IMG/VR virus record: IMGVR_UViG_3300015245_000196
Span: 1,052-46,851 of that record
Length of the DNA: 45,800 bases
Direction: 5' to 3' (one strand)
Source of the DNA: a virus
The number at the start of each line of letters is the position of its first letter. Within the stretch, counting starts at the first letter, position 1. The notes beneath the pieces are model-generated. The model saw only the letters and a program-made list of their open reading frames with translations. It made no database searches and had not been told where the DNA came from. A program made the translations under genes and the position numbers. Positions 611-34,977 of the stretch are shown in pieces.

Positions 611-3600
611 ATGCCGCTGCGAGCTCTACAACCCGACGAGGAGATCGTTCCGCTCGCGCAGCCGAAGCCGGCGGGGCGGCCCGTGCGCGCGATCCGTCCG
701 CTCGCCGACTCCGACACGGTGATCCCGCTCGGGCAGACACAGCCGAACACGCTGCCCGCGCACACGCCCTCGCTCTCCGAGTCGCTCTTGGGTCGCGAGG
801 ATCCGGGCGGCACCGCCAACGTCGCCGGCGTGCTGCCCTCGCTCGGCGAGCACCTTGCGACCACGGGTAAAGAGATCGGCAATCTATTCATGCAAGGCGG
901 CGTCAACGCGGCCGACGTGGCGCTCACCGCGCAAAAGCCGCTGCTCGACTGGTACTTGCAGCGCGACCAAGCCGCGCGCGATCGCGGCCAGCAGCAGCAA
1001 GAGGAGCTCTTGAGCTCGGGCCGCGAAATGTTCACGCCGGCGCAGACGACGCCCGTTGGCGACGTGCTCGGCGGGCTCGCCGGTATGGCGCTGCCGCTCG
1101 CCGGCGGCGTGCCCGGGCTCGTGGCGAGCGAGACGCTGCGCCGCGGCAAGGAGCTGCTCGACGAGAACATCGATTTGCCCACGGCGCAAAAGCTCTCCGT
1201 GCTGCGCGGGGCGACCACGTACGCGGGCGCGAAGCTGCCGATCGTCGGCAAGACCGCGGCGTCGCGCGTGCTCACCGGCGCCGGCGGCAACGTGGCGCTC
1301 AACGCCGCGGATCAGCAGCAGGAAAAGGACACGCTCAGGGCCGCCGCACCGACGCTCTCGCCCGAGGAGCAGGCGGCCGCCGGCGCGACGTTCGAGTCCG
1401 ATCAGCCGCCCACGGCCGAGCAACACCAAGCGCTCGCCAAGGCGGGCCAGCGCGGGCAGTACATGGAGCTCGCCGACAAAATCCCCGCGTGGTGGGATCC
1501 GAAAGCGCGCATCACCGACCTCTTGATGGGCGCGGGCTTCGGCGGTCTGCATCACGTGCTACAGGCGCCCGTCGATCGCGCGAACGCGCAAGTCGAGGCC
1601 GCTCGAGCCGCTGCCGAGCACGAGGCCGCGATCGGCGACACCCTCGCGCGCGCCGACGCCGGCGTGCGTGGAGCTCAACGGCCGCCCTCGAGCGGCGGCG
1701 CCGCGCAGAATCCGGCCGAGGCGTTCTACGACAGCTTCACGCAGGAAGGCCAGGAGACGCCGCGGCTGCACACGCCGGAATCGTTCGAGCGCCGTAACGA
1801 CATCCAGGCGCCCGAGCCGCCGCCGCCCAACGACGGCACGCTGCCGGCCGCGGGCACCGTCACGCGCACGCCGGCCGATCGCTCGCCGATCGAGCAGGAG
1901 ACCGAGCTCGAGCGCATGGGCCTGACGCCCGACGTGATCGGCAACCTCATCAAGCTCGAGGACGAGGGCGACGCCAAGCGCGCGGGGCGCGTGTTACCGA
2001 AGCCGGAGACACCGGCGCCGCCCGTGCCCGACGAGGCCGCTCAGGCGGCGCAGCGCGAGCGTTACGCCGGCGAGGCGGCCCAGGAGCGCACGGGGAAGAT
2101 CGCGGCCGAGCGGCGCGGCGAGATCGGTCTCACGCCCGACGTGCAAGCGAACCTCGCGCGTATGCAAGCACGCGGCGCGGTGGGCGCGTCCGTGCCGCCG
2201 ATCGCCGACGTTGTCGCACCTGTAACAGATAAATCGACGCCCACGGCCGATCAAGGGGTTACGCCGCAACAAAGTGCGACAAGCACTGTACAAACACCGA
2301 AAAAGGTCCGACCGCTCCGTCAGGGCGAGGAAATCGTGCCTCTTTCGGCCACCGAGGGCGGAAAAGCACCCGCGGCGGGCACAGAACACGCTATCGAGAG
2401 CGTTCAACCGGGCGAGAAGGGTCTCAAACGGCAGCGTCAAGACAAGGCCGTCAAGAAGTGGTTGCAGGCGAAGCGACCGCCCCCGAGCGATCCCGAGCGG
2501 CTGATTAGCTACCGCACCGAGGCGACGCTCGGCTACAACCTCGCGCACAAAGCGGGCGCCGCGCCCGACGTGCTCGACGCGCTGCGACGCGAATCGGAAT
2601 GGGCGCACGAGCAGCTCGCGGCGACCAGCCCCGGCACGCTCGAGAGTCTCGGCGTGGACGCCAAAGGCCGAAACACTCGCGCCGGCGGCGCGCTCGAGCA
2701 GACTGAGCCGCAAGGCAAAAGTGCAAAAAGTGCAAAACCGCAAAGCGTGCTCGAGCACCTCGCTCATCACGGCGGCGTCTCGATCGACGCGCTCGAGGCC
2801 GAGGGGATCGACCGCGCCGACATGCGCAGCGTCAAGGGCTTCAAGCGGCCGTTCACCAAGAAGGGCATGTCGCTCGACGCCGCGGCCGAGAAGCTGCACG
2901 AGGCGGGCTACCCCGTCGCCGACGAGGGCGGGCGCCCCGACGCCAACAAGGCGCTCGCGCTGATCGACTCCGAAGTGCGCCACGGCACGCGAACGCTCCC
3001 AAAGAGCGCAAGCGCGGAAGCCCCTGTGGCTGCGCAGGAACGCCGTGGCGGCGAGGAAGCCCGCACCGCGGCCGAGCGTCGCGCCCCGCCGCCCCGTGAG
3101 ACGCCCGACCGCCGCGGCGTCGTAGGCGAGCGTCGCAAGCCCGTCGGCGAAATGTCGCACGAGGAAATGCGCTCCGAGCTCCTCACGTCGCACCTGACGG
3201 GCTTGGCGAACCGCCGCGCGTACGACGAGCGCCCGCGCATGGCGCACCAGGGCTCGATTGACGTCGACTCGCTGAAATGGGTCAACGACAACATGAGCCA
3301 CGGATCCGGCGACGAGCTGCTCAAGGCCGTCGGCCAAGCGCTGAAAGAAGCCGCCGGCGACCGCGCGTATCACTTCTCGGGGGATGAGTTCGCGATCGAG
3401 GGCAAGGACGCGGCCGAGCTGCACGAGCTCATGGAGCGTGTCAACGAGCGGCTCGCGCAGGCGACGATCGAGATCACCAAGGCCGACGGCAGCGTGGTCA
3501 CGCTCGACGGTCTCGGCGTAAGCTACGGACTCGGAGAGACCCTCGATGCCGCCGACCAAAATCTCAGCGTTGCCAAACAGACCCGGGAAGCGCAAGGCGT

Positions 3601-6600
3601 TCGGGCGGCCCGCGGTGAAAAGCCTGTCGGCGCGACTGTCCGCGGCGGGGGTGACGAAGGCGGACCGGATCAGCAAGGTAACGCTCCCGCCGGCGTCAAA
3701 GAGCCCGGAGCCGACGAGTACGGATCCGAGCAGCCTGCCGAGCACGAGCCCGGAGACGTCGAGCACGTAACGCTCACCGGCGAGGGCCACGTCGCGCACA
3801 CGGAGCGCGGCGGCGGCGAGCACGTCCAAGTCGGCGAGGGACGCGCCGGCGTCAAAGAGGGCGGCGAGCTCACCGCCGAGCAGCAGTCGATCAAGAGCGC
3901 GCTGCGCGAGGTCGAAGACAATCCGACCGCGCCCGCGAAGGCGCGCGTTCGCAAGCTGCTCGATGCGTACAAGGCCGAGCACGGCAACGACGCGACGAGC
4001 GAACTCCTCGATCGCCTGGACGCCGAGCGCGAGCTCTCCGACGAGCACCCCGTCGTTCACGAGCAAGACGCCCTCGAGCGCGACTCACAAGAACTCGGCG
4101 ACGCGCTGCGCGCTGCGCACGAGGCGAATCCCGAGGACACCGCGCCGCACTCGGCCGTCCGCAAGCTCATGGCGCGTTTCGAGCGCAAGCACGGCACCGA
4201 AGCGCTCGACACTCTCATCGACAAGCTCGATAAGGAGCTCGATCTCGAGCCGCGCGAGATCCGCGCGTCGAAGGCGAAGCCGCCGGCGATGCCACCGCGC
4301 AACCCGCCCGAGCAGGGCGATCTCTTTACGCAAGACGACGCGCGCCCGGGCACGACCGCGAAGCAGATCGCCGCGGCGAACGCGATCCTCAAGGAGCTCG
4401 AGGACGCGGCGGCGTCGGACGAGGAGCACGACATCAAGTCGCTCGCGGTGTCGTTCAACCGCGAGTTCAAGACCGATCACACCGCGTCGCTGATCGGCAA
4501 GACGATCACGGCGACCGGCGACCTCGCGACGTTGTCGGAAGTGTTCCGCGACGCGAAGACGGAGATCCTGCGGTACTTCCTCACCGACAAGGGCAGCGGG
4601 CGGATCATCGCGCAAACCGGCGTCGGCTCGCGCCTGCCCGGATCCGGCGCGGCGTATCCGGCCGGCGAAAGCATGGAGTGGGTCGGGCGTTTCATCGCCA
4701 AGCATCCGGGCGCGGAACTCTGGATGCAGCACAACCACCCCGGCGGGTTCGCGCGTCCGTCGACGACCGACGTTGCGCTCACGGCGAACATCGCGCGGCG
4801 CTTCAAGATCAACGTGCGCCACGTGGTCATCGATCACGATCACTACGGGCGGATCATGGCGAAGCCCGACGGCGAGATCATCAGCAACGAAATCGTGCAC
4901 TGGTCGGAGAAGGCGAACGAGCCCGATCCGTTGCACACGCCGTCGAAGCCGCACCCGTTACTCGGCCGCAGCCTCACCGGGCCGGGGCCGCTCATTCAGC
5001 TCGCGAAGGAGCTCGAGCAGAAGGGCGCTTACGTGACCGTGATCGGCACCGGCGGCGCCTACAGCAAAGTGAAGACGCTCGGCGACATGCCGTCGCACCT
5101 ATTCAGCAACCCCGAGCGGCTCAAGCAACAGCTCCGACGCTTCGCCGTGCAAAACGGATCCGCGCAGCTCTTTATCGCCGGCATCGATCCCGAGCACTTT
5201 CGCTCGAGCGAGAGCCGCCGGCTGTTCAACGAGCTCCAATACGACGGCTACGCGATGGACTTCATCAACACCGAGGGGCACTCGTTCGCAACCGAGGGCG
5301 GCGGGATCATCCGAAAGGGCCAGCTCGAGCACGGCGTCGACTCGCACCTCGTCGCGCGCGAGGTCAAGCCGCGCGAGCCCGACACGCGCACCGAGAAGCA
5401 AGTCGACGCTTTCAACGCCGGCGCCGAGGCGCGCAACAAGCTCGCGGCCGAGGAGCGCTCGCGCGACGCGAAGCGCAACCCGAACAAGGACGTCAACGCC
5501 GACACCGGCCGACCGGGCGATCTCTTTACGCGGCACAAGCAACTCGATCTCGTGAAGGACGTCGTACCGCACCGCAAGTTGCTCGAGCGTCAATTCGAGG
5601 CCGCCAAGAAGGAGCTCGAGAAGCTCACAACCGCGGAGATCCCCGGCACCGTCGACGAGCCCGGCGGTCAAGCCGAGGCCGACGCACGCGCCGAGCAGAG
5701 CAAAAAGATCCGCGCGGCGCAAAAGCGCATGAACGATCTCGCCGAGCAGATCACGGGCCACAAGACCCGCTCGCTTGGCGAGCTCGCCGACGAGATCCGC
5801 GGGCTCGAGAATCGCCGGCGCGCGTCGCGATCGCCGAAACGTCGCAACGAGCTCGCCGACGAGATCTCGAAGCTGCACGACGAGGAGAACGACACCGTCG
5901 AGGAGACGCCCGGACAATACGGCGAGCGCCGCGCCGATCAGCGTCGCACGGTGGAACGCGGCGGCCGGCGCGAAGGCGACGAGGACAAATCGCAGAAGGG
6001 CGACAAGGGTTACGCGGCCGTCGCACAGAAAGCACTCAACGCCTGGAACAAGCGCGTCGGCTGGCGCTATGGGCCGCTCGGCCGACTACCGGCGAAGGAG
6101 CGCTATCTCGAGCAGCGCTACAAGGCGCTCGGCAAAGTCACGGAGTCCCAAGAGATCGCGCGCGGTCTCTACGACGCGCTGCACAAGGCGACGCCGGAAG
6201 ATAGCGCCGCGGTCTACGAATACTTGACCAACAAGGATGGGGAGTTCTCGACGATCAAGGATCGCGACATCCGGGCGATCGCCAAGACCACGAAGAACAT
6301 GATCGATCAGATCGGTCAACGGCTCGTGAACGCGGGGCTTTTATCGCAAGAGGCGTACGACGAACACAAGGGCGAGTATCTGCCGCGCCTCTACCTCAAG
6401 CACATGCTCGGCGAAAGCGTGATGAGCGCGATCGGCAGCGGTAAGCGCATGTCGGATCTCGGCTACTTGAAGCGCCGCCAGGACATCCCCGAGGAGGTCC
6501 GCAAGGTCGTGCTCGGCGAGATCACGGATCCCGCGTTCCTCGCGTCGTTCGGGATCTCGCGCACGCTGCGCGATCTCGCGCTGCATGACTTCCTGCAAGC

Positions 6601-8317
6601 GATCGCGGGGCGCGAACAGTGGACGCCGCGACACTCGACGGTGGAATGGCGCGGCCGACAAGTGACGCCGTTCTATCTCGCCGACGAGGCTCGAGCTCTG
6701 CGCAAGCGCGCGGCGCTGTACCAAGACGGATCCGCGAAAGCGGCCGCGTTCAAGCTCGCCGACGAGGCGCAGGCGATCGCCGACGAGGGGCTCGCGAAAC
6801 TTGAGGCGCGCCCGGATCCAAACGACTTCGAGCAGATCCCGAACTCGCGCCGCTACGGAGCGCTGCGCGGCCTGTACGTGCGGAAAGAAATCTACGGCGA
6901 TCTCGTCGGCGCGCAGCAGTGGATCCCTGCCAACTCGAGCATCGCCGAGCAGCTACTCGGATCCGGCGGCTTGATGGCGCGCGCACAGTCTTGGTGGAAG
7001 CTCTCGAAAGTGATCCTGAACCCGCCGACTCAGGTGCGGAATTTCATTGCGAACATGGTGCTATTGCACCTCTCCGGCGTGCCGTTCCATCGCGTGTACT
7101 CGGGCGAGATCGTCGGCAAGGCGATCAACTCGATCGCGAAAAAAGACCGCTTCTACCAGATCGCGAAAAAGTACGGGCTGTTCTCCGCGACGTTCGCCAA
7201 CACCGAGGGCGCGCGGATCCGCGACGAGTGGCTCGCGCTGCAAGACATGAAGGGCGGCGGCCTCGCGAAGCTGCGCGCGTTCGCCGGCCGCGGCGTCAAC
7301 GCGGCGAGCGACTTCTATCAACTCATGGAGGCGATCGGCAAGATCGCGAAGATCCGCGACGCGATCGAGCGCGAGGGCAAGGAACCGGCCGCCGCGGTGC
7401 TCGAGGCGCATGAGGCGTTGTTCGATTACTCGCTCGTGCCGCGCTCCGTGGGGTATCTGCGCAACGCGCCGGTCGGCGCGCCGTTCATCACGTTCGCCTA
7501 CAAAGCGGCCGCGCAGATGGCGAAGATCGCGATCAAGCACCCGGCTCGTTTCGCACCGTACGTCGCGATCCCGTTCCTCATGGCCTCGCTCATCAAGAAC
7601 GCCTACGACGTCACCGACGACGATCTCAAGAAGCTGCGCGAGGCGCTGCCGAAGTGGATGAAAGAGCGCGGGCACATGTTGTTGCTGCCGTACAAAGACG
7701 CGCTCGGCCGCTGGCAAGTCGTCGATCTCGGCTACCTCGCACCGTGGGGTCAATTCGCCGATCTCTACGCGGCCGCCGAGCAGGGCAAGGGCGTGAAGGA
7801 GCTCGCCGGCTCGCTGGCGTTCTCCGGTCCCATGATGGACGTCGCGAACGCGATTCAGACCGGCGTCGATCCCTTCACGGGCAAGGAGATCGTCAACCCC
7901 GCGGATCCGCCGGCCGATCGACTGCAACAGATGATGCAGTACGCATGGAACCTCGCCGCGCCCGGCTGGCTCACCGAACAGGGCGCGCTCAATCAGCTCC
8001 GAAAATCAGTCACCGGCAACAACTTGAACAAGCGCACGGGCGAGCCCGGCATGACGCCGACGCAAGCGTCGCTGCGGTTGCTTGGGTTGAACGTCTACCC
8101 CGCGGATCCGACCGCGACGCGCGCCGCGAATTTGCGCTCGATGCGTGCGAACCTCGAGGAGTCCAAGGCGCGCGCGAGCGAGCTTCTGCGCAACAAGAAT
8201 CTGAGCGACAGCGAGCGCGAGAAGATCCGGGCGACGTGGCAAAAACTTCTCGAGGCGCGCGGCAAGGAGATCGAGCTCTATAGTCGCGGCTCGGAAATCA
8301 ACCCGAAGCTACAGTGA
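611..8317 (+). CDS. Giant polyvalent protein with GGDEF, RadC-like JAMM and LPD38-like domains (2568 aa)
   Basis: Single uninterrupted 7.7-kb gene, ATG after GGAG. Domains in order: a disordered N-terminus with repeated EEIVPL-type motifs; a Gly/Ala-rich hydrophobic stretch at about 149-175; a small helical domain around 720-780 (ending in SLDAAAEKLHEAGYPV) of a kind common in phage polyvalent proteins; a GGDEF domain at about 845-1000 (LTGLANRR, DVDSLKWVND, SGDEF); two tandem helical repeats at about 1090-1212; a JAMM metalloprotease-like domain at about 1277-1427 with HNHPGGFARPSTTD, as in RadC; coiled coil at about 1640-1780; and a long C-terminal region (about 1800-2500) with NPPTQVRNF and hydrophobic helices that resembles LPD38. 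Known family: polyvalent proteins are multi-domain proteins carried in with phage or conjugative DNA. That this one is packaged and ejected is inferred from its place beside internal virion genes. GGDEF proteins make cyclic-di-GMP; activity here is untested. Confidence 0.85.
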   Translation: MPLRALQPDEEIVPLAQPKPAGRPVRAIRPLADSDTVIPLGQTQPNTLPAHTPSLSESLLGREDPGGTANVAGVLPSLGEHLATTGKEIGNLFMQGGVNAADVALTAQKPLLDWYLQRDQAARDRGQQQQEELLSSGREMFTPAQTTPVGDVLGGLAGMALPLAGGVPGLVASETLRRGKELLDENIDLPTAQKLSVLRGATTYAGAKLPIVGKTAASRVLTGAGGNVALNAADQQQEKDTLRAAAPTLSPEEQAAAGATFESDQPPTAEQHQALAKAGQRGQYMELADKIPAWWDPKARITDLLMGAGFGGLHHVLQAPVDRANAQVEAARAAAEHEAAIGDTLARADAGVRGAQRPPSSGGAAQNPAEAFYDSFTQEGQETPRLHTPESFERRNDIQAPEPPPPNDGTLPAAGTVTRTPADRSPIEQETELERMGLTPDVIGNLIKLEDEGDAKRAGRVLPKPETPAPPVPDEAAQAAQRERYAGEAAQERTGKIAAERRGEIGLTPDVQANLARMQARGAVGASVPPIADVVAPVTDKSTPTADQGVTPQQSATSTVQTPKKVRPLRQGEEIVPLSATEGGKAPAAGTEHAIESVQPGEKGLKRQRQDKAVKKWLQAKRPPPSDPERLISYRTEATLGYNLAHKAGAAPDVLDALRRESEWAHEQLAATSPGTLESLGVDAKGRNTRAGGALEQTEPQGKSAKSAKPQSVLEHLAHHGGVSIDALEAEGIDRADMRSVKGFKRPFTKKGMSLDAAAEKLHEAGYPVADEGGRPDANKALALIDSEVRHGTRTLPKSASAEAPVAAQERRGGEEARTAAERRAPPPRETPDRRGVVGERRKPVGEMSHEEMRSELLTSHLTGLANRRAYDERPRMAHQGSIDVDSLKWVNDNMSHGSGDELLKAVGQALKEAAGDRAYHFSGDEFAIEGKDAAELHELMERVNERLAQATIEITKADGSVVTLDGLGVSYGLGETLDAADQNLSVAKQTREAQGVRAARGEKPVGATVRGGGDEGGPDQQGNAPAGVKEPGADEYGSEQPAEHEPGDVEHVTLTGEGHVAHTERGGGEHVQVGEGRAGVKEGGELTAEQQSIKSALREVEDNPTAPAKARVRKLLDAYKAEHGNDATSELLDRLDAERELSDEHPVVHEQDALERDSQELGDALRAAHEANPEDTAPHSAVRKLMARFERKHGTEALDTLIDKLDKELDLEPREIRASKAKPPAMPPRNPPEQGDLFTQDDARPGTTAKQIAAANAILKELEDAAASDEEHDIKSLAVSFNREFKTDHTASLIGKTITATGDLATLSEVFRDAKTEILRYFLTDKGSGRIIAQTGVGSRLPGSGAAYPAGESMEWVGRFIAKHPGAELWMQHNHPGGFARPSTTDVALTANIARRFKINVRHVVIDHDHYGRIMAKPDGEIISNEIVHWSEKANEPDPLHTPSKPHPLLGRSLTGPGPLIQLAKELEQKGAYVTVIGTGGAYSKVKTLGDMPSHLFSNPERLKQQLRRFAVQNGSAQLFIAGIDPEHFRSSESRRLFNELQYDGYAMDFINTEGHSFATEGGGIIRKGQLEHGVDSHLVAREVKPREPDTRTEKQVDAFNAGAEARNKLAAEERSRDAKRNPNKDVNADTGRPGDLFTRHKQLDLVKDVVPHRKLLERQFEAAKKELEKLTTAEIPGTVDEPGGQAEADARAEQSKKIRAAQKRMNDLAEQITGHKTRSLGELADEIRGLENRRRASRSPKRRNELADEISKLHDEENDTVEETPGQYGERRADQRRTVERGGRREGDEDKSQKGDKGYAAVAQKALNAWNKRVGWRYGPLGRLPAKERYLEQRYKALGKVTESQEIARGLYDALHKATPEDSAAVYEYLTNKDGEFSTIKDRDIRAIAKTTKNMIDQIGQRLVNAGLLSQEAYDEHKGEYLPRLYLKHMLGESVMSAIGSGKRMSDLGYLKRRQDIPEEVRKVVLGEITDPAFLASFGISRTLRDLALHDFLQAIAGREQWTPRHSTVEWRGRQVTPFYLADEARALRKRAALYQDGSAKAAAFKLADEAQAIADEGLAKLEARPDPNDFEQIPNSRRYGALRGLYVRKEIYGDLVGAQQWIPANSSIAEQLLGSGGLMARAQSWWKLSKVILNPPTQVRNFIANMVLLHLSGVPFHRVYSGEIVGKAINSIAKKDRFYQIAKKYGLFSATFANTEGARIRDEWLALQDMKGGGLAKLRAFAGRGVNAASDFYQLMEAIGKIAKIRDAIEREGKEPAAAVLEAHEALFDYSLVPRSVGYLRNAPVGAPFITFAYKAAAQMAKIAIKHPARFAPYVAIPFLMASLIKNAYDVTDDDLKKLREALPKWMKERGHMLLLPYKDALGRWQVVDLGYLAPWGQFADLYAAAEQGKGVKELAGSLAFSGPMMDVANAIQTGVDPFTGKEIVNPADPPADRLQQMMQYAWNLAAPGWLTEQGALNQLRKSVTGNNLNKRTGEPGMTPTQASLRLLGLNVYPADPTATRAANLRSMRANLEESKARASELLRNKNLSDSEREKIRATWQKLLEARGKEIELYSRGSEINPKLQ
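3878..4250 (+). repeat. Two tandem helical repeats inside the polyvalent protein
   Basis: Two copies of a roughly 55-60 residue alpha-helical unit lie head to tail (about residues 1090-1145 and 1154-1212). Both contain an LREVED or LRAAHE helix followed by Asn-Pro, then a V-R-K-L-(L/M) helix, a KHG or EHG turn, and a final L-(L/I)-D-(R/K)-LD helix. The protein copies have diverged and the DNA is not identical, so this is an old duplication. Confidence 0.7.
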
Positions 8318-9096
8318 CCGCGCGCACCAAGTTCAAAGTCCCGGCGTACGGGAATCTCAATAAGGCGCTGATCTTTCAATCGGGCGCGCAGATCGGCGTC
8401 GACCTCGCGTTGCCCGATGGATCCGTGCCCGGGCTCTCAGAGCTCGCGGCCGCGCTCGCGCCGTATCTCACGGCGAGCTCGAGCACGCCGGCGCCGGTCA
8501 ACACGGTCGTTTTCTGGTCGCAGATCCAAAGCATCCCGGCGAACGTGCAGCAAGTCGTCGCGCTCGCAAGCGTCGGGCTCGTCACGCGGCAGACCGACGG
8601 CACCTGGATCACGAGCGCGATCGACGGCACCGCGGGGCGCATCGTCGTCGCCAACGGCAACGGCGATCTCGGGGATCCCACGATCGACCTCGCCACGGTC
8701 AGCGTGGGCGCCGGCGGCGTGCTCGCAACCTTCACCGTCGACGCCTACGGGCGCGTCACGCAGCGCACCGCGCGCACGATCACCGGCACCGCGACGCGCA
8801 TCGCGGTCAGCAACGGCGACGGCGCGGCGGGCAATCCGACCATCGACCTCGTCGCGGTCTCTCAAGACGCCAACGGCGTGCTGTACGCGATCGAGCTCGA
8901 CAGCTACGGGCGCGTCACCGGGCACCGCGTCGCGGATCTCGTCGACCTCGACGACGTGCTCTATCCGACCGGCACGCCGGCCGACGGCGACGTGCTCACG
9001 TACAACAGCGGCCAAGGCTGGATCCCGGCCCCGCCGACGGGTGGCGGCGGCTCGAGCTACCCGCCGCCGCAACTCCTGATTTCGGGGTGCTTCTGA
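8314..9096 (+). CDS. Tail fibre-like protein with two beta repeats
   Basis: GTG start overlapping the stop of the polyvalent gene (GTGA). The 260-residue product starts with a linker region and then carries two copies of a repeat of about 50 residues (residues about 105-205). Each has the pattern GTA-x-RI-x-V-x-NG-(N/D)-G, then NPTIDL or DPTIDL, and ends in DAYGRVT or DSYGRVT. This pattern is common in trimeric phage tail fibre shafts and stalks. The C-terminus is a Gly/Ser/Pro-rich tail (GGGGSSYPPPQ). It is the first of six coupled appendage genes, so it is probably a structural component of the adsorption apparatus. Receptor specificity cannot be read from the sequence. Confidence 0.75.
   Translation: MTARTKFKVPAYGNLNKALIFQSGAQIGVDLALPDGSVPGLSELAAALAPYLTASSSTPAPVNTVVFWSQIQSIPANVQQVVALASVGLVTRQTDGTWITSAIDGTAGRIVVANGNGDLGDPTIDLATVSVGAGGVLATFTVDAYGRVTQRTARTITGTATRIAVSNGDGAAGNPTIDLVAVSQDANGVLYAIELDSYGRVTGHRVADLVDLDDVLYPTGTPADGDVLTYNSGQGWIPAPPTGGGGSSYPPPQLLISGCF
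8626..8930 (+). repeat. Tandem tail fibre repeat (two copies)
   Basis: Two consecutive copies of a module of about 50 codons, starting near 8626 and 8785. Each reads GT-A-(G/T)-RI at the start, then NPTIDL or DPTIDL in the middle, and D-(A/S)-YGRVT at the end. The repeat is diverged at the DNA level. Confidence 0.75.
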
Positions 9097-14897: not shown

Positions 14898-15806
14898 ATG
14901 CCACTAACACAAGAACAGATCGCCGCGCGCTCCAAGGGCATCGGTGGATCCGACGCCGGCGTGATCGCGGGTTTGCGCCCGAACCTGACGCCCGTGCAGC
15001 TCTGGCAGGAGAAGACCGGCCGGATCCCGCCGCCGGATTTCAGCGACAACGAGCTCGTGGAGTGGGGGCACGAGTTCGAGGAAGTGATCGGCCGGGTGTG
15101 GGCGAAGCGCACGGGCAACAAGATCCGGCGCGTCAATCGCACGCTCTACGACAAAGAGCACACGTTCATGCTCGGACACATCGACTTCGACGTGGTCGGC
15201 AAGAACGAAGGACTCGAGTGCAAACAGGCGGCGTTCTGGATGCGCAACTTTTGGGGCGACGAGGACACGGACGACGTGCCGCTCTACTACCTGATCCAAG
15301 GCGTGCACTACATGCGGATCTACGACACGGCCGCGTGGAATTTCGCCGTGCTGCTCGGCGGCAACAAGCTGATGAAGTACCGCGTCGAGCGCGACCTCGA
15401 CAGCGAGAAGCAACTCATCGAGCTCGAGCGCAAATTCTGGACGTGCGTGGAGACGGACATCCCGCCGCCGCCGATCCGCATCGAAGACCTCGCGCGCGTG
15501 TGGCCGACGACCGGCGGTAGCATCGTCGCGACCGAGGAGATCGCGCTCGCCGTCGACGAGTGCGCCAAGCTCGGCGAGCAGCGCCGGGAGCTCGAGAAGC
15601 AGGAGAAGGCGCTCAAGCTCGCGATCGGTACGTACATGGGCGCGGCCGGCGATCTCGTGGATCCCGCCGACCCGAGCACGCTGCTCGCCACCTACCGCGC
15701 GCACGACGAGAATCGCATCGACGTGAACCGACTACGCGAGGAGCAGCCGGCGATCGCGGCCGAGTACACGAAGACGAGCGCGGTGCGCAAGTTCCTGGCA
15801 AAGTGA
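14898..15806 (+). CDS. YqaJ-family viral recombinase / lambda-type exonuclease (302 aa)
   Basis: ATG after an ACAACGGAG leader. The fold is that of the lambda exonuclease family: IGGSDAGVIAG near the N-terminus, WGHEFEE (E59), GHIDFDV (D96) and the catalytic E-x-K as LECKQA (E107, K109), then YLIQGVHYMRIY. These are the metal-binding and catalytic positions of this nuclease fold. It probably digests one strand of double-stranded DNA ends to leave 3' overhangs for annealing. It is followed directly by a RecT-type annealase, which is the usual partner. Length is typical for the family. Confidence 0.92.
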   Translation: MPLTQEQIAARSKGIGGSDAGVIAGLRPNLTPVQLWQEKTGRIPPPDFSDNELVEWGHEFEEVIGRVWAKRTGNKIRRVNRTLYDKEHTFMLGHIDFDVVGKNEGLECKQAAFWMRNFWGDEDTDDVPLYYLIQGVHYMRIYDTAAWNFAVLLGGNKLMKYRVERDLDSEKQLIELERKFWTCVETDIPPPPIRIEDLARVWPTTGGSIVATEEIALAVDECAKLGEQRRELEKQEKALKLAIGTYMGAAGDLVDPADPSTLLATYRAHDENRIDVNRLREEQPAIAAEYTKTSAVRKFLAK

Positions 15807-15831
15807 CCGCCGAACAACGGAGCCGACAACA

Positions 15832-17022
15832 ATGAACACCGCACAGAGCTTTGCCGTGATCGCGAAACCGATCGCGCACCAGTTCCGCCACGTGGCGCCG
15901 ACGTCGCTCGATTGGGCGAGCGAGCGCGAGTTCCTGTACGCGCAGATCTTTCGGCCGGGCAACGAGGCGGTGATCGAAATGATCGACCGCGGCGTCGAGG
16001 AGACGATCGAATCCGTGCGCCGCGCCGCGCGCTCGAGTGCGGCGATGGGGCTCACGATGAACCCGACGGCCGCGCTCGTGTATTTCATCCCGCGCCGCGC
16101 GCGCAAGCGCAACAGCGAGCTTTATCCCGACGACAAGAGCGAGGCGCACTACAAGTCGACCGTGCCGTGGATCATCGGCGCGACGCCGAGCTACCGCGGG
16201 CTCGCGTTCGTCTGCACGCACTACTCAGGCTTCGACGACGTCTTGAGCGAGGTCGTGTTCAAGGCCGACTCGTTCGTGTATCACGGGCCGTTCGAGAAGC
16301 CGCTGCACGTGCCCACGCTCGACAACGCGCTGCGCACCGAGAAGAACGCGATCGGCGCCTACGCCCTGTTCGTCAAGCAAGGCCGGATCCGCACCGAGTA
16401 CGTCGACGCGCCCACGATCGCGATGGTTCGCTCGATGTCCGACAACTCCAACGGGCTCATGTGGACGAAGTTCTGGACCGAGGGATGGCGCAAGGTCGCG
16501 GTGCGCCGCGGATCCAAGCTCGCCATGCAGAGCGCAGGAATCGTGCCAAGCGGGGGCGAGCGGTGGACCGCGGCCGAGGACGCCATGCAGGCCGCCGACG
16601 GCGTCACGCTCGACGAGACGGGCGCCCCGGTCAATGTTCCACGTGGAACACCCGACCCGGCCGAGCCAACGAGCGGGGCTCAGGCGAGCGCCGCCAAGCC
16701 GAGGGGTATGGGCGGGTTACGGGATCGCATGACTCAGGCCACTACACGCAGCCAGGAGGCGCAGACGGAGACCGAGCTCGAGCCGGCCAGCAAGGCGCTG
16801 CTCGCGCTGCCGGCGCCGTCCAAGCACCCCGAGGGCTCGATCGAATGGTGGCTCGATCAGGTGCACGCCGGCGGATCCGACGCCCGGCTCGACGAGATCA
16901 AGGTCGCGGCGCTGGCGGCCGGGGTTGATCGCACCGAAGACGCCGACTCGTTCCGCAGGGTGTTCGCCGAGCGCAAGAAGGAACTGCGCGGGCCGCCCGG
17001 CAGCACACGGCAGCTCGTGTGA
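15832..17022 (+). CDS. recT: RecT-family single-strand annealing protein (396 aa)
   Basis: ATG after ACAACGGAG. Residues about 1-240 carry the RecT pattern: SAAMGLTMNPT, YRGLAFVCTHYSG, ADSFVYHGPFE, then EKNAIGAYALFVKQG and WTKFWTEGWRKVAVRRGSK. These proteins anneal complementary single strands and promote strand exchange with the paired exonuclease. Residues about 255-330 are a disordered linker, and the last 60 residues form a separate small helical region (SIEWWLDQVHAGGSD). The linker DNA contains a perfect parS palindrome (16635-16650) written in codons otherwise rare in this genome. Stop overlaps the next GTG. Confidence 0.92.
   Translation: MNTAQSFAVIAKPIAHQFRHVAPTSLDWASEREFLYAQIFRPGNEAVIEMIDRGVEETIESVRRAARSSAAMGLTMNPTAALVYFIPRRARKRNSELYPDDKSEAHYKSTVPWIIGATPSYRGLAFVCTHYSGFDDVLSEVVFKADSFVYHGPFEKPLHVPTLDNALRTEKNAIGAYALFVKQGRIRTEYVDAPTIAMVRSMSDNSNGLMWTKFWTEGWRKVAVRRGSKLAMQSAGIVPSGGERWTAAEDAMQAADGVTLDETGAPVNVPRGTPDPAEPTSGAQASAAKPRGMGGLRDRMTQATTRSQEAQTETELEPASKALLALPAPSKHPEGSIEWWLDQVHAGGSDARLDEIKVAALAAGVDRTEDADSFRRVFAERKKELRGPPGSTRQLV
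16635..16650 (+). promoter_or_regulatory. parS: Perfect parS-type site (TGTTCCACGTGGAACA)
   Basis: A 16-base perfect palindrome matching the conserved chromosomal parS consensus TGTTNCACGTGNAACA recognised by ParB. It lies in the recT linker, where AAT GTT CCA CGT GGA ACA are all unusual choices in a genome that prefers AAC, GTC, CCG, CGC, GGC and ACG. No parA or parB gene was found in the window. Confidence 0.75.
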
Positions 17023-34269: not shown

Positions 34270-34977
34270 ATGCGCTTGAATGTCTCCGGCTGGTACGTGC
34301 CCGACGTCTTGCTCGAGGGCGAGCCGGATCCCGTCGAATCGCAGCGCAACGAGTGCGACGATCAGATCGCGGCCGCGCTGCCGCACATCACGTGTCACGA
34401 GCTCGTCGTGCAGGCCGGCGGCCGCGTGGGTCTCTGGCCGTGTGCGCTCGCGCAGTGGTTCGCCAAGGTCGTTACGCTCGAGCCGGATCCGGTCAACTTC
34501 GAGTGCCTCGCCGCCAACGTCGCCAAGCACGCGAACGTCGTGCCGTTCAACGCCGCGTTCGGCCGCAGTAACCGCTTTGGCTATCTCAATCGCTCCGATC
34601 AGTCGGGCGGCGAACACTATCTGCGGCCGCTCGGCGAGCGCCCCGCGCGCAACGTGCACAGCACGCGCGTACAGGTGATCGACGTCGACACGATGATCGC
34701 GGAGGAGGGCGGGCGCGTCGGCGCGATGTTCCTCGACGTCGAGGGCTACGAAATGGAAGCGCTTGCCGGCGCGCGTGAGACGCTGCGCAAGCACAAGCCG
34801 ACGCTGGTGCTCGAGGAGAACGCGCTCTGTCACCGCTACGGCTACGATCGCGGCGACCTCAAGCGGTGGCTCTCGGCGTTCGGCTACGCTGAGGTCGGCA
34901 CGTTCACCAAGCTCGCGCCCGAGATCCAGAACGACGGCTACTTCCGCGGCGCCGATCTCATCTTCGCGCCCGCATGA
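34270..34977 (+). CDS. FkbM-family methyltransferase (235 aa)
   Basis: ATG at 34270 with GAAGAAGG upstream. SAM-binding motif I VVQAGGRVGLWPCALAQWF, then VVTLEPDPVNFECLAANV, DVDTMIAEEGG, and the FkbM hallmark MFLDVEGYEMEALAGARETL followed by LVLEENALCHRYG. FkbM enzymes O-methylate sugars or polyketides. Here it opens a five-gene cassette with sugar transferases, so the substrate is probably a glycan. Coupled (ATGA) to the next gene. Confidence 0.87.
   Translation: MRLNVSGWYVPDVLLEGEPDPVESQRNECDDQIAAALPHITCHELVVQAGGRVGLWPCALAQWFAKVVTLEPDPVNFECLAANVAKHANVVPFNAAFGRSNRFGYLNRSDQSGGEHYLRPLGERPARNVHSTRVQVIDVDTMIAEEGGRVGAMFLDVEGYEMEALAGARETLRKHKPTLVLEENALCHRYGYDRGDLKRWLSAFGYAEVGTFTKLAPEIQNDGYFRGADLIFAPA

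Follow-up and report, generated by a model that had tools for sequence, protein, structure and literature searches.

A compact GGDEF domain from a phage clade, likely an active diguanylate cyclase, within a giant polyvalent-type protein

A giant protein encoded by this virus contains a compact GGDEF domain that has the fold of diguanylate cyclases and belongs to a phage clade in which the residues that bind GTP and metal are almost completely conserved. We favor the reading, at a probability of roughly 0.58, that the domain is a catalytically competent diguanylate cyclase built as a module into a large polyvalent phage protein, and that this protein would reside in the virion and enter the cell with the DNA. 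The basic idea is not new: in 2017 Iyer et al. described GGDEF domains among the modules of phage polyvalent proteins and proposed that they act in cyclic-nucleotide signaling (PMC5512222). What is new here is the delimitation of a phage clade with a compact form and signatures of its own, the strictness with which its catalytic residues are conserved, a linker motif, and the adjacency of the domain to a pyrophosphatase in some relatives.

Results

A GGDEF domain in a giant phage protein

The window (the whole stretch of 45,800 nucleotides that was analysed) comes from a record that is a 46.9-kb fragment, with the gene for the giant near its left end and its place in the gene order partly visible. 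A short run of unknown bases at about 1030-1045 of the record (L169), before the start of the window, breaks an open reading frame and thus indicates an assembly gap near the left end. The features discussed below are as follows.

611 to 8317, plus strand: giant multidomain polyvalent-type protein, 2568 amino acids, one long open frame
3107 to 3136, plus strand: linker motif DRRxxxxxRR, residues 833-842, just ahead of the GGDEF domain; R835 is nearly invariant
3152 to 3625, plus strand: compact GGDEF (diguanylate-cyclase-like) domain, residues 848-1005
3194 to 3217, plus strand: LTGLANRR, residues 862-869
3260 to 3289, plus strand: DVDSLKWVND, residues 884-893, with D884 (metal), K889 (phosphate) and N892 (guanine) assigned by correspondence to PleD
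3350 to 3361, plus strand: AAGD at the position of the RxxD inhibitory site, residues 914-917
3377 to 3391, plus strand: SGDEF signature, residues 923-927
3575 to 3625, plus strand: family C-terminal signature, K989-x2-R-E-x2-G-x-R-A-x-R-G-x2-P1005, from the alignment
4481 to 4870, plus strand: RadC-like JAB region, residues 1291-1420, with HNHPGG...PSTTD at residues 1374-1387
6077 to 8314, plus strand: C-terminal module, residues 1823-2568, also found in giants L014 and L020 and in the giant of podovirus ctwe8250
8314 to 9096, plus strand: following gene, which overlaps the 3' end of the giant gene; matches phrog_697, a family of phage structural proteins (E=4.9e-15)

The reading frame of the giant is high in G+C at third codon positions. 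Pfam recognized two things in the protein, a GGDEF domain and a weak RadC match. The GGDEF match (PF00990, residues 861-993) has an E-value of 2.8e-11 and, at 43.9 bits, clears the curated cut-off of 23.8, and is therefore far beyond chance; it is the one GGDEF match in the 46,851-base record. A first-pass annotation of this DNA had proposed such a domain at about residues 845-1000. The location holds, and the domain is slightly longer, because the conserved K..RE..G.RAARG..P stretch that runs to residue 1005 belongs to it. Structure prediction, which the same annotation had put forward as a check, gave a confident diguanylate-cyclase-like fold (AlphaFold, single chain, pLDDT 94.5, pTM 0.88). 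The model superimposes on DgcB with Z 16.8 (1.9 Å over 138 residues) and matches WspR with Z 16 and PleD with Z 15; these values of 15-17 and the Pfam match together bear out the assignment. Across 50 GGDEF-domain entries, Z ranged from 13 to 17. Foldseek gave a probability of 1.00.

The LTGLANRR, DxDxLKxxND and SGDEF motifs reported earlier are all in place and the set of catalytic residues is complete (D884, K889, N892, D901, G924, D925, E926, F927 and K989). The window domain shares its fold, its metal- and GTP-binding residues and its GGDEF signature with PleD, WspR, DgcB and DosC, but differs from them in several respects. Its first-helix stretch is about 10 residues shorter, and the first helix in the model has six residues. 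It lacks RxxD, it ends in K-x2-R-E-x2-G-x-R-A-x-R-G rather than GRN, and no sensory or coiled-coil partner was seen. Neither a dimerisation domain nor a long coiled coil was recognized adjoining the GGDEF domain. The unusually short region between the first two motifs, also pointed out earlier, is real: 14 residues separate R869 from D884. Counted from the alignment, the NRR-to-DxD spacing has a median of 14.5 in the clade described below (interquartile range 14-15) and of 24 in the sampled bacterial GGDEF domains.

An almost purely viral clade

A tblastn search with the whole window protein matched 48 phage records. Forty-seven of these are YuA-type Pseudomonas and Bordetella phages, with about 33-38% identity confined to the GGDEF domain; the other is podovirus ctwe8250, which matches the C-terminal region. 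Scans of viral contigs with a single sequence as query, whether the window domain or the C-terminal module, returned no relatives. The query that did retrieve them was an alignment of the window domain with three Yuavirus-type proteins, which found 79 loci in IMG/VR and 80 in bacterial genomes. Leaving out three unclear members (L082, L083 and L088) gave 76 viral loci, seven of them stand-alone genes of about 156-260 amino acids and about 69 within larger reading frames, mostly of 1,400-6,000 amino acids, some of which are truncated where the contig stops. Full-length matches in the bacterial collection came from about ten contigs of metagenome-assembled genomes (MAGs). These contigs are mostly short, and the matches are probably phage since they often lie in giant reading frames. 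Beyond them, the bacterial matches drop to ordinary GGDEF proteins.

A tree built from 104 domains separates the viral, window and MAG copies from 53 bacterial GGDEF domains with an SH-aLRT of 99; the bacterial rows came from the same motif scan and so represent the nearest bacterial GGDEF domains rather than a random sample. Within the viral clade, stand-alone and giant forms make separate branches, with small exceptions. These sequence comparisons place the domain in a GGDEF clade that is almost purely viral and comprises the 76 IMG/VR loci and the Yuavirus and Vojvodinavirus proteins. Its hallmarks are the short NRR-to-DxD spacing, DSLKW[VI]ND, YH.SGDEF in the giants, and the ending K-x2-R-E-x2-G-x-R-A-x-R-G-x2-P.

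Several Bacillota GGDEF proteins (L103, L104, L112, L114, L124, L128, L145, L162 and L166) have a phage-like ending, K..YY..TGK.RR. They are a possible source group for the phage domain, and in the 104-domain tree they did not join the phage clade. We also considered an origin from plasmid polyvalent proteins and set it aside; the matches listed for plasmids were to GGDEF proteins of the ordinary bacterial kind.

Catalytic residues are conserved and the RxxD site is not

Among 83 family sequences, the residues counted are invariant or nearly so: D884 (83), D886 (83), K889 (78), N892 (83), D893 (81), D901 (77), G924 (83), D925 (82), E926 (83), F927 (82), K989 (82) and R998 (81). The signature opens with S in the window domain, as it does in 73 of the 83. 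We take PleD D327, K332, N335, D344, E370, E371 and K442 to be the counterparts, by motif correspondence, with D884 presumably equivalent to D327, K889 to K332 and N892 to N335. In an alignment of 65 sequences with a mean column identity of 37%, the invariant columns are D47, D49, N55, D56, G63, G87, D88 and E89 (domain numbering). The bacterial sample is less strict, with D886 in 59 of 71 and N892 in 60 of 71. That substrate and metal sites stay invariant at such divergence is strong evidence of selection on catalysis, and an active cyclase is likely given this pattern in the 83 sequences.

The opposite possibility is that catalysis has been lost and that the domain is a GTP-binding or structural module. 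The shortened first helix, the replacement of GRN and the lack of a visible dimerisation partner would fit such a module, and diguanylate cyclases require two GGDEF domains. However, degenerate GGDEF domains usually lose exactly the catalytic metal and substrate residues, and these are invariant across highly diverged phages here, with one exception (L100, which has SGAEF). We therefore think it very improbable that activity has been lost. The much shortened first helix and the R-rich signature in place of GRN do mean that the substrate or product could differ from the usual ones.

The RxxD inhibitory site of diguanylate cyclases sits five residues ahead of the GGDEF signature. The window domain has AAGD there, at residues 914-917, as noted in the first-pass annotation, and RxxD is gone in 82 of the 83 family members; the loss of the canonical site, like the short region after LTGLANRR, is a family trait. 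The annotation had gone on to conclude that product inhibition should be absent; the canonical primary site is indeed missing, but full absence is too strong a claim.

A different proposal is that the domain is a nucleotidyl cyclase for counter-defence, which would make another cyclic dinucleotide, or c-di-GMP as a decoy or competitor for defence effectors. Iyer et al. suggest that such domains could disturb the nucleotide-based responses of the host (PMC5512222), and palm-domain cyclases serve in defence, as in Panoptes (PMC12657218). The YuA-type gene lies immediately upstream of an antirestriction gene (PF03230), and the base-contact position of D901 is occupied by N in five and T in one of the 83 sequences. 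On the other hand, that neighbor accompanies the close YuA-type genes only and is not found beside the more distant stand-alone members, and the residues predicted to contact guanine, N892 (83/83) and D901 (77/83), point to GTP and hence to c-di-GMP. In Hypr GGDEF domains (cGAMP synthases), a Ser reportedly replaces the guanine-contacting Asp (PleD D344), from work on GacA; the window domain keeps D901 and does not have this substitution. The Panoptes cyclase OptS (mCpol) belongs to the same palm-domain superfamily and makes cyclic dinucleotides in phage-host conflict, but its GGDEF motif is nearly absent and KpOptS makes 2',3'-c-di-AMP from ATP (PMC12657218), whereas the window domain is on the phage side and retains SGDEF and both guanine-binding residues. 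Overall, we consider a counter-defence function improbable.

The domain is a mobile module of polyvalent-type giants

Twenty giants that we aligned have in common the GGDEF domain, a short [ED]RR..R linker element, and little else. In blastp searches with the window protein, residues 850-1000 are covered by 82-95 proteins and the remainder by at most six. GGDEF is thus a mobile module among giants that are otherwise unalignable, although every giant compared had been found through its GGDEF domain. The linker element, [ED]RR-x5-7-R, is present in 45 of 68 giants, where shuffled linkers would give 2.7, and is absent from all 67 bacterial GGDEF proteins examined; it is possibly a processing or docking site.

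Polyvalent-type domains in the 20 giants include inorganic pyrophosphatase (InPase, 5/20), LPD38, LPD22, LPD39, LPD1, ART-PolyVal, RadC and GNAT. The window protein has the make-up of a polyvalent protein in its 2568 residues and its pairing of GGDEF with a RadC-like stretch, the latter (PF04002, E=0.0014) lying under the Pfam cut-off; the RadC-like JAB region is shared with giants L058, L069 and L074. No LPD or other polyvalent marker exceeded the Pfam cut-off in the window protein, L014 or ctwe8250, and L020 has a weak ART-PolyVal match only. An assignment of the window protein's C-terminus to LPD38 was dropped, as Pfam does not reach LPD38. The C-terminal module is 44.5% identical in L014, and the ctwe8250 giant has a similar module and no GGDEF match. 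L014 also has a weak methyltransferase match mid-protein (residues 1086-1200), where the window protein has none. Module content thus differs between these near relatives. Another stretch of the window protein, residues 715-798 (window about 2753-3004, containing SLDAAAEKLHEAGYP), recurs in giants L017, L020, L026, L030, L035 and L041, directly after the InPase domain in L017, L026 and L035. Elsewhere in the window are adjoining genes for a RecE-like exonuclease and a RecT-like annealing protein (14898-17022), and a methyltransferase-like gene (phrog_8156, 34270-34977) flanked by the terminase and major head protein genes.

An iterated profile found InPase in 16 of 79 reading frames; the window protein gave no match. 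Among 15 non-redundant giants with InPase, seven have it within 50 residues before or after GGDEF, where random placement predicts 0.8, or 1.6 when placement is limited to the N-terminal part (p=0.0005); L017, L026 and L035 represent one arrangement, so these events are not all independent. Joining two GTP by cyclisation frees two pyrophosphates, and the adjacency thus suggests functional coupling of the two domains. This coupling is our own inference; Iyer et al. suggest for polyvalent proteins that InPase may remove pyrophosphate that would inhibit replication or transcription (PMC5512222).

Gene neighborhoods and delivery

The first-pass annotation called the giant probably ejected, a view that receives indirect support from the polyvalent domains of related giants and from their tail and head-closure neighbors. 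Among 20 neighboring reading frames scanned in relatives, several are virion genes and many gave no match. A head-closure gene adjoins L014, L029 has a tail protein and tail-fibre-like genes next to it, tail-fibre genes follow L028 and L040, and an endolysin-type protein precedes L053. Giants that lie between tail genes and tail fibres sit where T7-like phages have their internal virion proteins. The virion genes and this position favor a putative delivery of the giant with the virion. A podovirus ejection apparatus as a general feature was considered and rejected: a T7-type portal (head-tail connector) exceeded the cut-off in 8 of 50 records, and the window's record is not among them.

Alternatively, an active cyclase might not be ejected and could instead be made and act in the infected or lysogenic cell, as proposed for the stand-alone YuA gp44. 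The sister branch in Yuavirus and Vojvodinavirus is indeed a stand-alone 156-amino acid gene outside the structural module, and lysogens of Bordetella phage LK3 produce more biofilm, which is a correlation only (PMC8471281). The giants are different in that they fuse GGDEF with polyvalent modules and several adjoin tail or head genes; the window gene itself overlaps a gene of structural type. For the giants, we regard synthesis and action solely within the infected cell as unlikely.

Discussion

We propose that the giant is a virion component that would enter the cell alongside the DNA. The GGDEF domain, perhaps cut loose from the flexible linkers that flank it, would pair with a second copy, and the paired domains would make c-di-GMP from two GTP, unchecked by the usual feedback through RxxD. 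Where a relative has a neighboring InPase, as some do, that domain would remove the pyrophosphate released and pull the reaction forward. Higher c-di-GMP could then act through host receptors on surface behavior (pili, flagella, exopolysaccharide); the first-pass annotation had named motility, biofilm or receptor display as what might change. The gain to the phage would most plausibly be that rival phages are excluded or that the cell is held in a favorable state. This last step, from c-di-GMP to host surface behavior and phage benefit, is the least certain. A PilZ c-di-GMP receptor was found in none of the 50 phage records searched, so the receptor would be the host's or of another type. Infection by phage N4 relies on host c-di-GMP via a surface glycan (PMC8669472), and phages are known to block pili against superinfection (PMC11656802).

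The closest known proteins are YuA gp44 and its Vojvodinavirus counterparts (phrog_5594 type, 'diguanylate-cyclase GGDEF domain protein'), which share the clade, its signatures and 33-38% identity over the domain. Unlike the window giant, they are stand-alone proteins of 156 amino acids beside antirestriction or SprT-like genes; the annotation of gp44 names a diguanylate-cyclase domain and gives the protein a 'putative role in host cell conversion'. The GGDEF polyvalent proteins of Iyer et al. resemble the window protein in that they, too, are giant phage proteins, believed to enter the cell during infection, in which GGDEF is fused with other enzymatic domains. In the portions of that paper on which we draw, GGDEF is called 'not very widespread', the compact clade, its residues and its signatures are not described, and RadC is listed for conjugative elements only, whereas the window protein is a phage protein with a RadC-like stretch (PMC5512222). 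We found no biochemical test of phage GGDEF proteins in the open-licence literature.

More broadly, we entertain the tentative idea that phages of many lineages eject giants with unregulated diguanylate cyclases, some of them assisted by a pyrophosphatase of their own, and thereby reset c-di-GMP within minutes; the second-messenger synthase itself, and not just its gene, would then arrive together with the DNA. Should the domain be active and free of product inhibition, a few copies could be enough to have an effect: by our own estimate, ten copies at about one turnover per second would make about 600 molecules per minute, or about 1 µM in a 1-fL cell. The clade occurs in many unrelated giants and also as a 156-amino acid stand-alone gene of cultivable Pseudomonas and Bordetella phages, which makes the 2017 prediction testable with a small domain. 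Phages are known to degrade or bind nucleotide signals; a signal-making enzyme delivered with the DNA would, if true, be the opposite tactic.
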